Under the pieces are notes generated by a model, which had not been told where the DNA came from, made no database searches, and saw nothing but the letters and a program-made list of their open reading frames with translations. A stretch of 64,000 nt of DNA from Buchnera aphidicola (Cinara strobi) (GTDB lineage Bacteria; Pseudomonadota; Gammaproteobacteria; Enterobacterales; Enterobacteriaceae), in assembly GCF_900560745.1 (NCBI RefSeq), contig NZ_LR025085.1, forward strand, positions 124,001-188,000, read 5' to 3'. A program made the position numbers and the translations under genes. Below, piece by piece: positions 18,957 to 46,323 of the stretch (the first letter of the stretch is position 1; each line of letters begins with the position of its first letter).

Positions 18957-19330
18957 TGGAGCTGGCGGGAGTTGAACCCGCGTCCAAAAATAACTATTAG
19001 TATTGCTCTACATGTTTAGTTTATTTTATTTAATAAAATAAATACTAAAATAAACAAAGTATTATTTTTTATCTTGATTTTTTATAACTCTGATGTTTCA
19101 AGATTAACGTTTCAGCGTTATCTCTTTTAAATATAACCTTTTATAAGATATTTATTCTATTAAAAGAGAGTAAAATAGACTAAAAAAAAGGGCTTTATCC
19201 AGGTTTTTAAGCTGCTAAAGCGTATTTTTGTTTATTTGCGTTTAATTAATTTGGTTTTTTAACGAGGCAAACCAATCCTCGACATGCAACAATAATGATA
19301 GTAAATTTTGTCAAATCCATGATCAGCCCC
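18957..19330 (-). ncRNA. ssrA: Transfer-messenger RNA (tmRNA)
   Basis: Rescues stalled ribosomes and tags the unfinished protein for degradation. On the minus strand the 5' end reads GGGGCTGATC and the 3' end GCGGGTTCAACTCCCGCC then AGCTCCA, forming the tRNA-like acceptor and T arms; the final CCA is not encoded. The CATGTCGAGGA and TTGCCTCGTTAAAAA segments match the E. coli 5' region. The tag frame (19207-19239) starts at resume codon GCA and reads ANKQKYALAA then TAA, against ANDENYALAA in E. coli. Length is 374 bases. It sits between grpE and the divergent grxD, preceded by a promoter-like TATAAT. Confidence 0.96.
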
Positions 19331-41102: not shown

Positions 41103-42266
41103 TTAATCTGCTTTTTTTCTTAAAAAAGCAGGAATGTCTAAAAAATTTCTTTCGTATTTTTTAATTTTATTTGTTTTTTGATGATTATTGATATTTTTTT
41201 TAATTTTTTCAGTATTACTGATAACTCTATGTCTTTGCAAAGATTGATTTCTATAGTTAACTAAAATTTCCTTGGATGACTGATTTCTCATAAAAGAGAT
41301 TTCAGATTGTTTTTCCATTCCAATACCAGTTGCTACTACAGTTACACGTAACGCATGATCCATTTGAGGGTCAAGCGATGTCCCTATAACAACCGTTGCG
41401 TTATCAGAGGAAAATGCTCGAATAGTATTTCCAACAGTTTCAAATTCATCTAATCTTAAATCAAATCCAGCTGTAATATTTACTAATACCCCACGTGCTC
41501 CAGAAAGGTCAATATCTTCTAGTAATGGGCTAGATATAGCAATTTCAGAAGCTTCTTCTGCTCGATTTTCACCTGAAGCTGATCCAGTCCCCATCATAGC
41601 ATAACCCATTTCTGACATAACTGTCCTTACATCTGCAAAATCTACATTCATTAAACCCGGACGTGTAATTAATTCAGCTATCCCTTGAACTGCCCCCTTT
41701 AATACATCATTTGCAGCCCCAAAAGCGTCTAATAAAGATATCCCTCGAGTTAATACTTTTAATAATTTATCGTTAGGAATAGTTATTAATGAGTCAACAT
41801 ATTTAGATAGTTCATTAAGACCTTGTTCAGCAAAGTTCATTCTTTTTTTTCCTTCAAAACTAAACGGTTTAGTAACTACCGCTACAGTTAATATACCTAG
41901 ATCTTTCGCTACTTCAGCCACTACTGGAGCTGCTCCAGTACCAGTCCCCCCACCCATACCTGCAGCTATAAATACCATATCAGCACCATCCAATGCTGAT
42001 TTTAATATTTCTTTATCTTCTTCAGCAGAATTTTTTCCTACATCAGGATTAGCCCCAGCACCTAATCCTTTTGTAATGTTATTTCCAATTTGTATTGTTT
42101 GTCCTACAGCCACTTTTCTTAATGCTTGAGCATCTGTATTAATAGCAAAAAATTCTACTCCTTCTATTTTTTCACGAACCATATGTTCTACTGCATTACT
42201 ACCTCCACCACCTACACCAATAACTTTAATTACTGCATCATTACTTAATTCAGAAGGTTCAAACAT
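41103..42266 (-). CDS. ftsZ: Cell division protein FtsZ
   Basis: Tubulin-like GTPase forming the division ring. It has 387 residues (E. coli 383) and is by far the best-conserved protein of its neighbourhood. The tubulin signature is [20 protein letters not shown], with [14 protein letters not shown] near the N-terminus and the T7-loop region [20 protein letters not shown]. The C-terminal peptide [13 protein letters not shown], which binds FtsA, is intact. ftsA lies immediately upstream with a 63-base gap. Confidence 0.98.
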
Positions 42267-42329: not shown

Positions 42330-43586
42330 TTAAATTATTTTTTTAACTACTTTTTTAAAATTTTTTAATAAATATTTTAAAAATCTATATTTTTTTTCTT
42401 TTTTAAAAGAATAATTTTGATAATTTTTCCTATAACTTAATAATCCAATTATTGTTGCGTATTCTGGTTTAGAGAGATAATCAGGTATTTTGGAGATACT
42501 GCATGGTTTTTTTATTGTAACGTTGGCATGAAATATTTTTTTTGCATATGCAGATAAATATTTTATTTTAGAAGATCCACCGGTAAGTATAATATTTGAT
42601 AGTATTTGTTTTTTGTTTTTGTTAGTATTATATTGTTCATATAATTTTAAAATTTTTTGATTTACTAAGCGAAGTAGTTCATTATATCGCGGTTGAATAA
42701 CTTTAACTAATTCAGAATGATTACAATAAGCAATCTTTTTCCCTTGTTTATTAACAATTGCTAAGTTTTTACATGTAATTGAAATATCTTCTATTGTATA
42801 TCCGTATTTTTTTTTTATAAATTCTGCATCAGAATAAGACAAAGAAAATGCGTAAGCAATATCTTTAGTTACAATATTTCCAGCATATGGGATAACGGAA
42901 GTATGATATAATAATCCTTTTATATATACACTGATATGCATATTTTCTCCACCCATATCAATTAAACATACTCCTGTATTTTTTTCTTCTTCAGTTAAAA
43001 CTGATAATCCAGATGCTAATCCGGAGAATATTATTTTTTTTACATAAATTCCACATTTTTGAACAGCTTTAATAATGTTTTTTTGAATATTTTGGTTACC
43101 TGTGATTAAGTGCACATTAGCCTGTATTCTTATTCCTGATAATCCAATTGGATTTTTAATTCCTGATTGTTTATCTACACAAAAATCTTGAGGAACAATA
43201 TGTAAGATATTATGATCATTTTTTATTTTAACAGATTTCGCGGTTTTAATAACAGTCTCGATGTCTTTTTTTGTAACTTCATTATTTTTAATGGGAGTGA
43301 TTCCAATTTCATTATAACAGTGAATATCTTGATGGGAGATAGATAGATAAACAGAATAAATTTTGCATTTTGCCATACTTTCCGCTTGTTGAATAGACTT
43401 ATTAATACACTTAGTTAATAATTCTAAGTTATTAATATTTCCTTGCTCTATACCCTTAGTTTGACATTTACCGAACCCAATGATATTAATAACTCCATCT
43501 TTAAGAATCTCTCCTATTAATGTGATTATCTTAGTGCTCCCTATTTCTAATCCGACAGTTATTTTTTTTTTTATTGAAAGGTTCAT
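42330..43586 (-). CDS. ftsA: Cell division protein FtsA
   Basis: Actin-like ATPase tethering FtsZ to the membrane. It has 418 residues (E. coli 420). Phosphate 1 is VGLEIGSTKIITLIGE, phosphate 2 VCLIDMGGENMHISVYIKG, and the adenosine motif NIILTGGSSKIKYL. The C-terminal basic amphipathic helix (FLKYLLKNFKKVVKKII) fits the membrane-targeting sequence. In E. coli the genes upstream are ddlB and ftsQ; here the next upstream item on the strand is the decayed murE. Confidence 0.96.
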   Translation of the reverse strand: MNLSIKKKITVGLEIGSTKIITLIGEILKDGVINIIGFGKCQTKGIEQGNINNLELLTKCINKSIQQAESMAKCKIYSVYLSISHQDIHCYNEIGITPIKNNEVTKKDIETVIKTAKSVKIKNDHNILHIVPQDFCVDKQSGIKNPIGLSGIRIQANVHLITGNQNIQKNIIKAVQKCGIYVKKIIFSGLASGLSVLTEEEKNTGVCLIDMGGENMHISVYIKGLLYHTSVIPYAGNIVTKDIAYAFSLSYSDAEFIKKKYGYTIEDISITCKNLAIVNKQGKKIAYCNHSELVKVIQPRYNELLRLVNQKILKLYEQYNTNKNKKQILSNIILTGGSSKIKYLSAYAKKIFHANVTIKKPCSISKIPDYLSKPEYATIIGLLSYRKNYQNYSFKKEKKYRFLKYLLKNFKKVVKKII

Positions 43587-44292
43587 ATTATTTATACTAG
43601 ATTTTTATTATAATTTTTGCGATTTTATGTAATAATTTTATATTACATATTTTTTTAAAAATGAATAGTACTTTAAAGTATAAATTGTGATATGAAATAT
43701 AATAAATAGGACTAAATTTATTTTATTTTTTTGTAGAGATAGACTTTATACTTCAAAATATAATCATTAGACTGAATTGTAAATTGGAATTCAAAATAAA
43801 TACTAATATATTTTTTAAAAATTTATTAATTTTTTTGGATATTTTAAATTAAAAACATAATTTTATATGATAGTTAATAGATAATTTTTAAATTTAATAT
43901 TCAGTAATTTTTAAGTAATTATTTTTAATGTTAAAAATTATAAATTTTATATTTAAAAATTATTAGAGTGACTTTAGTTAGATTATTGATATTTTTATTT
44001 ATTAATACTAAGCTATATATTAAACTTATTTTTAATATATTCGTTTATATTTCAATATAATATTATTACTTTATATATTTCTAGATAGGAAATAAGATTT
44101 TTGTATCACTAATATATTAGAGAATAAAAAAAGAATCTTTATATAGATCAATAACAATTAATAAATTGTTTGAAATATTTAGAGTAAATATATTTTTATT
44201 TATTTGATAAGATACATATATTTGAATATATATGTTGTAGTTAGCTTAAAATAATTTTATTGGAAGATTAATGGTTTATTTAAAATAAATTA
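43587..44292. other. Gene-free spacer between ftsA and the murE remnant
   Basis: About 700 bases of A/T-rich DNA where murF, mraY, murD, ftsW, murG, murC and ddlB would lie in the ancestral order. I see no open frame longer than a few dozen codons and could not match any segment to those proteins, unlike the adjacent murE remnant. Confidence 0.55.
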
Positions 44293-45257
44293 TTATTTTA
44301 ATAGAGAGGCATCCTTACTTGTGTCCTTGTCTTTAAAATTAAAATTTTTAGTAAATTTTATAAGGGTTTTAGTTTTTTTTTTTCTTGTCCTAATTCTATA
44401 ATTATATCATATTTGTTAGTTTGAGAAAAAATAAATTGTATAGCTGTTTTAGTATTAAAGAATATAAAGAATTTATTTTTTTTCTACAATCTTGAATTAT
44501 ATCTTGTATAATAGATTTATTTTTTTCTTTTTTATATTTATTAATTAATATAATAAAATTACAAAATTTTTCGATAATATTCCCGATAATTTTTCTTTCA
44601 CTTATTCCTTGTATTTTTTTATACCCTAAAATATATCATATTTTTTGATAGTTATAATTGGTAGTTAAAGAATATAATATACGATATAATATTTGTGAAG
44701 AGTAAATATTATTGAAAATTAGTTAAGGTCTCTTTTTTATTAGAATTTTTTCCATTTTTTCCTGTATAGGTCTTAAGAATTGACTATTTGGAACGAGTTG
44801 TTTTAAAGAATGATTCATAGATAATATCGTAGCTATAGAAAATAGTATATTTGTAATATTAAAATCACTTAATAGTGTGATGTATAAATTCCCTAACCCC
44901 AGCCGGAATTGAAAAAAATTTTTGTTATTGAGAGTTTATAAACAATTTTAATTGTATTGATCTAGTATTGAGTATTAAAAATATTATCTTGTTTTAAAAG
45001 AGTCACTGAGATTATTTTTTTATTGTTTAATTTTTTTATCTAGTGATTAGTTACATTATCAATGTCTATTGACAATAATTGTTTTTATTTATTCATCATT
45101 TAAAAAGGAAAATTTTATTTTTTTTTCTAAAAAGAATTACAAATAGATCTCCATTTTTTATTTTTATTGTTTTCTTTCATGTTATATATTTTTTTTGTAG
45201 AACATTAATAATCCAAGGATTTAATAGTTCTTGTATATCTTTTATTTTTTTTATCAT
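44293..45257 (-). pseudogene. murE: Decayed murE (UDP-MurNAc-tripeptide synthetase)
   Basis: I found this by translating the minus strand by eye against remembered E. coli MurE. It begins at ATG 45257 with DIQELLNPWI (E. coli NLRDLLAPWV) and NGDLFV (AGDLFV), with an in-frame TGA at 45177-45179. After an internal deletion of roughly 500 bases that removes the ATP loop GTNGKTT, it resumes at about 44895 with SDFNITNILFSIATILS (GAFNVSNLLLALATLLA) and QEKMEKI (CGRMEVF). It then runs without gaps through SSQILYRILY, a TGA at 44636-44638 replacing the Trp of KLWCVFG, ISERKIIGNIIEKF (KRPLMGAIAEEF) and SIIQDII (AIINDIL). One frameshift follows, then TAIQFIFSQTNKYDIII and a stop at 44293. About 965 bases remain of an expected 1,490. 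It cannot make MurE. Confidence 0.88.
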
Positions 45258-45399
45258 AATTAAATATTATTTATTATTTTTAATAATTACTATATTTTAT
45301 AGTATTGATTAAAAAAATTTATTGAATATTGCATATAGCATCTTTAAATAAATTATTTCAATAATGAATCTATGATTGCATATTTTTTTCTAAATTATA

Positions 45400-46323
45400 T
45401 TATAATATTTCTGCAATGCGTAGAATAGCACTACGAGATCGCGGATTTTTTTTAACTTCTATTTGATTAGGTTTAATTTTTTTTATGATTTTTATTTTTT
45501 TATTTTTATATTTTTGCATTTTTTTATGAGTAATTGGAAAACCTTTAGGGAAAAAGGGATATTGACTATATTTTTTAAAAAAATTTTTTACAATTCTATT
45601 TTCGATGGAGTGAAAGCATATAATAACTAATCTTGATTTATTTGCTAATATTTTTATTGAAATTTTTAGTATTTTTTTTAGTTCTTGTATTTCATTATTA
45701 ATATAAATTCGTATTGCTTGAAAGGTTCGGGTAGCAGGGTGTTTATGTTGATATTTTCTTGGTATTGATTTATTGATAATGTCTACTAAATCAAGTGTTC
45801 GAGTGATTGTTTTTTGTTTATTTCTTTCAATAATAGAAAAAGAAATTTTTTTTGCATATTTTTCTTCTCCGAAATTTTTTAAAACAAATTCTATTTTTTT
45901 TTGATTAGATTTTTTTAACCACAACCAAGCTGGTATTCCAGTTGAAGTATTCATACGCATGTCTAGTAGACCGTCTTTCATAAATGAAAAACCTCTATTA
46001 GCTGTATTTAGCTGTATTGATGAAACACCTAAATCTAATAAGATCCCGTTAATTTTATTATTACAATGTTTAATATATATATCTTTTATTCTTTCAGAAA
46101 AACTTCCATGTTTAATAAAAAATCTTGGATCATATATTTTTTTTCCTAATTTAACAGCTGACAGATCTTGATCTATAGCATATAATTTTCCAGATTTTCC
46201 TATATTTTTTAATATTTCTAATGAATGCCCCCCTGCTCCAAATGTTCCATCGACGTATATTCCAGTTCTTTTTATTTTTAAAGCTGTAATAGACTCTTTT
46301 AATAATACAGGTATATGTTTCAT
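45400..46323 (-). CDS. rsmH: 16S rRNA m4C1402 methyltransferase
   Basis: N4-methylates C1402 of 16S rRNA. It has 307 residues (E. coli 313). SAM-binding motif YVDGTFGAGGHSLEIL, then GILLDLGVSSIQLNTANRGFS, DMRMNTSTGIPA, HPATRTFQAIRIYINNE, and the C-terminal SRSAILRIAE. In E. coli it opens the dcw cluster (mraZ-rsmH-ftsL-ftsI-murE...). Here the murE remnant starts only 142 bases past its stop, so ftsL and ftsI have been removed entirely. Confidence 0.96.
   Translation of the reverse strand: MKHIPVLLKESITALKIKRTGIYVDGTFGAGGHSLEILKNIGKSGKLYAIDQDLSAVKLGKKIYDPRFFIKHGSFSERIKDIYIKHCNNKINGILLDLGVSSIQLNTANRGFSFMKDGLLDMRMNTSTGIPAWLWLKKSNQKKIEFVLKNFGEEKYAKKISFSIIERNKQKTITRTLDLVDIINKSIPRKYQHKHPATRTFQAIRIYINNEIQELKKILKISIKILANKSRLVIICFHSIENRIVKNFFKKYSQYPFFPKGFPITHKKMQKYKNKKIKIIKKIKPNQIEVKKNPRSRSAILRIAEIL

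Follow-up and report, generated by a model that had tools for sequence, protein, structure and literature searches.

Can the decay of one murE gene date the loss of peptidoglycan synthesis in a Buchnera genome, or had this gene already left the wall pathway when it died? The question is raised by the gap between ftsA and rsmH in the Buchnera of Cinara strobi, studied here within a window of 64 kb (positions 124001-188000 of a 440,120-base contig; the genome has 449,015 bases on 3 contigs). In small symbiont genomes the usual practice is to interpret gene loss one pathway at a time, with leftover genes regarded as relics in waiting. We argue that in the Buchnera of Cinara the wall pathway was lost and that MurE alone persisted, acquiring a role outside the making of the wall, a reading to which we assign a probability of about 0.7.

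The murE remnant and its surroundings

The minus strand from 45257 to 44382 is a murE pseudogene, in which a colinear match to MurE, found by profile search and tblastn, is broken by stops, frameshifts and a deletion (Table 1). The initial annotation had placed murE on this strand between ftsA and rsmH, and this was borne out both by the NCBIfam murE model, which matched the minus strand at window 44471-45118 (genome 168471-169118; E 8.6e-13), and by tblastn with MurE proteins of relatives in the genus. It had foreseen a minus-strand tblastn match with E <1e-5 spanning both halves of the gene; the eight intact sister proteins, run against the whole 64-kb window at two settings, gave best E values of 3e-30 to 4e-51. 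Elsewhere in the window they gave nothing better than E 0.035. The best match to the remnant among MurEs from related genomes outside the genus had E 3.9e-13.

The damage proposed from the letters alone also held up. Both of the stops that had been named are present, one in the frame of the ATG and one at a Trp of the sisters; the frameshifting is seen in recognisable segments that fall in three frames; and the internal deletion, put at roughly 500 bases and said to include the ATP-binding loop, measures about 515 bases and has taken the P-loop with it. Eleven stops (2 TGA and 9 TAA) lie inside the NCBIfam match and, together with the deletion and the frameshifts, make the description of a gene being erased an apt one. 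The last ~20 codons of murE, before 44293, are not recognisable. The antisense ORF at 45079-45312 amounts to a mechanical frame of 77 aa with a TTG start, in a gap whose GC content is 16%.

Table 1. Features of the ftsA-rsmH region, in window coordinates.
Feature	Position	Strand	Evidence and remarks
ftsZ	41103..42266	-	intact; present in 16/16 genomes
ftsA	42330..43586	-	intact; present in 16/16 genomes
AT-rich stretch between recognisable remnant and ftsA	43587..44381	unassigned	
murE remnant, C-terminal part	about 44382..44453	-	tblastn; sister aa ~448-471, third frame
murE remnant, best-preserved part	44477..44917	-	tblastn, TIGR01085 match; sister aa ~293-438
TGA in best-preserved part	44638-44636	-	replaces Trp codon of sisters
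murE remnant, middle part	44890..45138	-	tblastn; sister aa ~219-300, two frames with stops; segments aa ~219-242 at 45138-45068 and aa ~262-300 at 45009-44890
Deletion junction	45120..45138	-	gap between tblastn segments; sister aa ~48-218 missing
murE remnant, 5' part	45120..45257	-	tblastn and sequence; sister aa 1-47
ATG and in-frame TGA in 5' part	ATG at 45257; TGA 45179-45177	-	sequence
rsmH	45400..46323	-	intact; present in 16/16 genomes

We used 111 frames drawn from 34 related loci (Mur ligases and the DNA within ~1.5 kb of them) to look for remnants of other wall genes in the ftsA-rsmH gap; in the window they matched the murE region (5 matches) and nothing else. Between the remnant and ftsA about 800 AT-rich bases without a readable frame persist. 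The corresponding spacer of the sisters has 339-688 bases and no clearly conserved block, the best 40-column stretch having a mean majority share of 0.74 against an average of 0.51. Spacer divergence is 11% in the pair G003/G004 and 8% in G006/G007, below the dS of murE (0.179 and 0.196, respectively), and base composition may be the reason. In three genomes without murE (G008, G009 and G014) the whole gap has shrunk to 417-477 bases. The only RNA gene found in the window was a tmRNA (tag ANKQKYALAA) at 18957-19330 on the minus strand; neither ARAGORN nor Rfam at gathering thresholds found a tRNA gene anywhere in the window.

murE in genomes without a wall pathway

Sixteen genomes of the genus were compared, the window's own (G000) among them; its leucine plasmid and its FtsA are most similar to those of Buchnera living in Cinara aphids. 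Likely hosts, though not proven, are C. cuneomaculata (G001), C. piceae (G005), C. cedri (G009), C. fornacula (G012), Nippolachnus piri (G008), Tuberolachnus salignus (G014) and C. kochiana kochiana (G015). G011 is likely from C. pseudotaxifoliae (its plasmid is 100% identical) and G003 from C. splendens or a near relative. The gene was found in 10 of the 16, always between ftsA and rsmH: in eight it is an open frame of 488-497 codons, in G015 it is frameshifted and in the window it is the pseudogene described above. A Mur-ligase middle domain was present once per genome in nine of the 16, where it belongs to murE, and was absent from the other seven. Profile searches for the MraY/WecA, transpeptidase, FtsW/RodA and MurG families each scored 0/16; among 14 named genomes that served as positive controls, the same searches scored 12, 10, 10 and 13, respectively.

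MurC, MurD and MurF are absent from the relatives that have an intact murE at this locus. MurA is seemingly missing as well, since the sole EPSP-synthase-fold gene of each genome is AroA where this was checked (3/16). Matches to Dala_Dala_lig_C, found in six of the 16 genomes, lie in frames of 1075-1115 aa; from this size they appear to be CarB, and Ddl is seemingly missing. By the searched wall genes we mean, here and below, those for MurA, MurC, MurD, MurE, MurF, Ddl, MraY, MurG, FtsW/RodA and transpeptidases.

The relevant passages of PMC9116674 describe the C. cedri Buchnera as having no peptidoglycan genes at all and name the Lachninae as one of the subfamilies from which such genes have almost completely disappeared. 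The list in PMC11188193, as far as that section goes, passes over murE without comment. Our own literature search, with most subscription papers outside its reach, found no discussion of an orphan murE in Cinara Buchnera.

The wider family was surveyed with an even draw of 119 genomes, in which most genera are represented by one genome. Four reduced genomes outside the genus (G073, G105, G114 and G124) had a single Mur-ligase domain and were considered as further carriers of an orphan murE; in all four the Mur_ligase_M match is FolC. One sequence filed under a Janthinobacterium lividum MAG (P0002) is 88% identical to the orphan MurE of G011 and is probably a misbinned Buchnera contig.

Purifying selection on the intact copies

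The eight intact copies of murE are under purifying selection across all three domains. Under codon model M0, omega for murE was 0.083 in the eight genomes, and omega = 1 was rejected (2dlnL 806). Eight neighbouring genes ranged from 0.010 to 0.079; murE was thus the highest of the nine genes, though slightly, and sits at the upper edge of its neighbours yet far from neutral. By domain, omega was 0.092 (N-terminal), 0.079 (middle) and 0.083 (C-terminal). Pairwise dN/dS was 0.103 for G003/G004, 0.073 for G006/G007 and 0.132, 0.199 and 0.159 for three other pairs, and all five values fall inside the range of the neighbouring genes, of which all 12 were used in the pairwise test. G015 was left out of the codon tests because of its frameshift.

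A two-ratio branch test on the remnant, used as a positive control, gave a saturated branch (length 9.2) with an omega of 0.012, which is not raised; the same test on the G000 branch of ftsA, rsmH, tsf and lpd gave 0.030-0.044. Since the control is saturated, omega on long branches is not trustworthy and it is the short pairs that bear the argument.

Residues and predicted fold of the orphan protein

The eight intact orphans were compared without a motif filter to 27 ordinary MurEs (12 proteins and 15 loci), which are presumed to be functional. The ordinary proteins have 54 invariant residues, of which 30 are lost in all eight orphans and 14 are kept in all eight. At 17 of the 30 lost positions the orphans have one new residue in common.

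Most of the substrate-contact residues are lost. Among the contacts to DAP, R389 is kept in three of the eight orphans, N414 in one, and D413, R416, G464 and E468 in none; in the ordinary set R389 is found in 26/27 and the other five in 27/27. The DNPR motif is intact in 0/8 orphans. T157, T158 and R192 of the UDP-MurNAc site are gone from all eight, as are H210, R341, D356 and Y357, invariant in the ordinary MurEs. Kept in all eight are G115, T116, G118, K119, T120, E182, N310 and K224, the position of the carbamylated Lys; within the P-loop TGTNGKT every orphan has Ile for T114 and Tyr for N117. The sister proteins score 193-229 bits against TIGR01085, below the curated cut-off of 257.3. In a structural model of a sister MurE (pLDDT 85.6) the three-domain MurE fold is present and the best PDB matches are to E. 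coli MurE, so that the fold is predicted to be intact.

Timing and number of losses

At 21 diagnostic sites one residue is found in 20 ordinary MurEs and another in all eight orphans; for the set of 20, a motif filter had excluded 4 of 14 loci. The remnant is readable at 11 of the 21, with the orphan residue at eight, the ordinary residue at one (Ec 464) and a third residue at two. Judged from the sequence at these sites, the window copy is one that died after the orphan MurE had changed.

Traces of the C-terminal part were found with the orphan profile in the C. cedri symbiont (E 1.7e-7) and in G012 (7.8 bits, E 4.5e-4). Among 140 crudely shuffled gaps, from seven genomes that lack murE or carry a pseudogene, the best score was 1.0 bits. 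With tblastn at E 0.01 the trace was recovered in the former and not in G012, for which the profile search is the sole source. No trace was found with the orphan profile in the ftsA-rsmH gap of G008, G010, G013 or G014. If these traces are genuine, the ancestor shared by no fewer than 12 of the genomes already had the orphan, which has since been lost or disrupted on more than one occasion; how often depends on weakly supported nodes.

The murE of the C. kochiana Buchnera (G015, locus L095) has a frameshift at an A run near codon 45, gap position ~215-235, and is otherwise open. Transcriptional slippage can bridge A-run frameshifts in Buchnera, so expression of this gene may persist. C. cuneomaculata, C. 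pseudotaxifoliae and C. kochiana are hosts of Erwinia according to a passage of PMC6908640. A test did not reject monophyly of the nine murE carriers (p-AU 0.127, though the program warned that replicates were too few), and any association between murE retention and Erwinia as co-symbiont may therefore amount to one data point.

In the initial annotation the decay of murE was taken to fix a fairly recent loss of peptidoglycan synthesis. This is not supported by comparison with the sisters, eight of which keep an intact murE without the other searched wall genes. Because those genes are gone from the sisters, most of the substrate-contact residues of their MurE are lost and the remnant has eight of the 11 readable derived residues, peptidoglycan synthesis had most likely already gone before murE died here, and it is a later function that is now being erased.

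Explanations for an orphan MurE

Under the reading that we favor, MurE would have outlived the peptidoglycan pathway when this was lost in the Buchnera of Cinara and would have persisted as a nucleotide-binding pseudoenzyme or as a scaffold for a protein partner, candidates being what remains of the FtsA/FtsZ apparatus, encoded alongside, or the transcription apparatus. The need for that function would have ceased on more than one occasion, and the deletion of ~515 bases, the frameshifts and the stops would have destroyed the gene in the window lineage. We read the protein as repurposed because the fold and the core of the nucleotide site are kept, the substrate contacts are lost, new residues are fixed and the constraint is strong. 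The role of a nucleotide-binding pseudoenzyme is most likely, although the kept P-loop residues may serve folding only. Since ftsA next to murE is the usual gene order, their adjacency is weak evidence for a partnership; and since several relatives have a broken copy or none, the orphan murE is not essential everywhere. A narrower proposal is one we hold only tentatively: that MurE underwent a second conversion, independent of the one in plants, to a non-enzymatic partner of the division or transcription machine in a bacterium moving toward an organelle-like state, and that some descendants, the window's lineage included, later gave it up.

The orphan MurE might instead still be an amide ligase, joining a different amino acid to a different acceptor. 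The presence of G115, T116, G118, K119, E182, K224 and N310 in 8/8 would suit such an enzyme, as would the common new residues at the old substrate contacts G464, E468 and R192. It would have to work, however, after the loss in 8/8 of H210, R341, D356 and Y357, positions of a kind that in Mur ligases lie in the core that contacts metal and ATP (in part after a section of PMC9434261), and we regard it as unlikely. That murE is an ordinary relic, one of the last wall genes, whose decay dates the loss of peptidoglycan, is highly improbable. The window does show the decay of a wall gene where no other searched wall gene was found, but eight intact and one frameshifted sister copies exist without the other searched pathway genes, the sisters are under purifying selection and the remnant has derived residues in common with them. 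Both the relic reading and the dating drawn from it are unsafe when the leftover gene is constrained and its substrate site is mostly gone.

Even less credit is due to a patchwork wall synthesis, as proposed for mealybugs, in which host or co-symbiont gives the substrate and MurE performs one step. Cinara aphids carry co-obligate symbionts (PMC6908640, in the part that treats them), but all eight orphans have lost D413, R416, G464 and E468, which in ordinary MurE serve the DAP site, as well as T157, T158 and R192 of the UDP-MurNAc site, and the aphid genes named in a section of PMC9116674 (amiD, ldcA, rlpA and lysozymes) are not Mur synthesis genes. The least probable reading is that the intact copies of the sisters are decaying as well and have so far escaped disruption by luck. 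Losses within the genus and the frameshift in the C. kochiana Buchnera would be expected of such genes; against this, simulated neutral evolution left 3 of 300 frames open at 0.05 substitutions per site and 0 of 300 at 0.1, while the tree of the eight intact copies has a length of 3.97 substitutions per codon, far beyond either value. Nor does murE have any indel in the pairs G003/G004, G006/G007 and G003/G011, although alignments of the spacer beside it contain 8, 17 and 30 gap columns, respectively.

Comparison with known systems

The sister proteins share with E. coli MurE (1e8c, 7b53; UDP-MurNAc-L-Ala-D-Glu:meso-DAP ligase) the place between ftsA and rsmH, the fold, the core of the P-loop (T114 and N117 apart) and K224, the position of the carbamylated Lys, and their length of 488-497 aa is like that of an ordinary MurE. 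They differ from it in that 30 of the 54 invariant residues are gone, DNPR is missing and the other searched pathway genes are absent; the window copy differs in that the gene is destroyed. Decay of murE is known elsewhere in Buchnera. In the Aphidini it is lost or inactivated (PMC9116674, in the part on that tribe), and a homopolymeric frameshift in murE of the Schizaphis graminum symbiont is mentioned in a passage of PMC3164680. The Aphidini Buchnera, however, keep many other wall genes, and that of R. maidis still makes a wall, according to the same part of PMC9116674, whereas in Cinara Buchnera murE is what remained when the other searched wall genes had gone, and it had already changed.

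The nearest parallel is PAP11 of plastids, which resembles MurE and is described in sections of PMC12681378 and PMC9434261 as a subunit of the plastid RNA polymerase. It matches the sister MurEs by sequence and fold, and in both cases a MurE fold would be kept for a role outside the wall in a compartment of endosymbiotic origin. The two differ in that PAP11 chains in the PDB have 768-774 aa, whereas the Buchnera protein has no long N-terminal extension, and in that most plant homologues, among those covered by the sources consulted, keep DNPR or DNPK while the Buchnera protein lacks DNPR. The orphan of Cinara Buchnera would be a second natural case, beside PAP11, of a MurE retained outside peptidoglycan synthesis, and with it one can test why a 440-kb genome without a wall pathway still needs a Mur-ligase fold.
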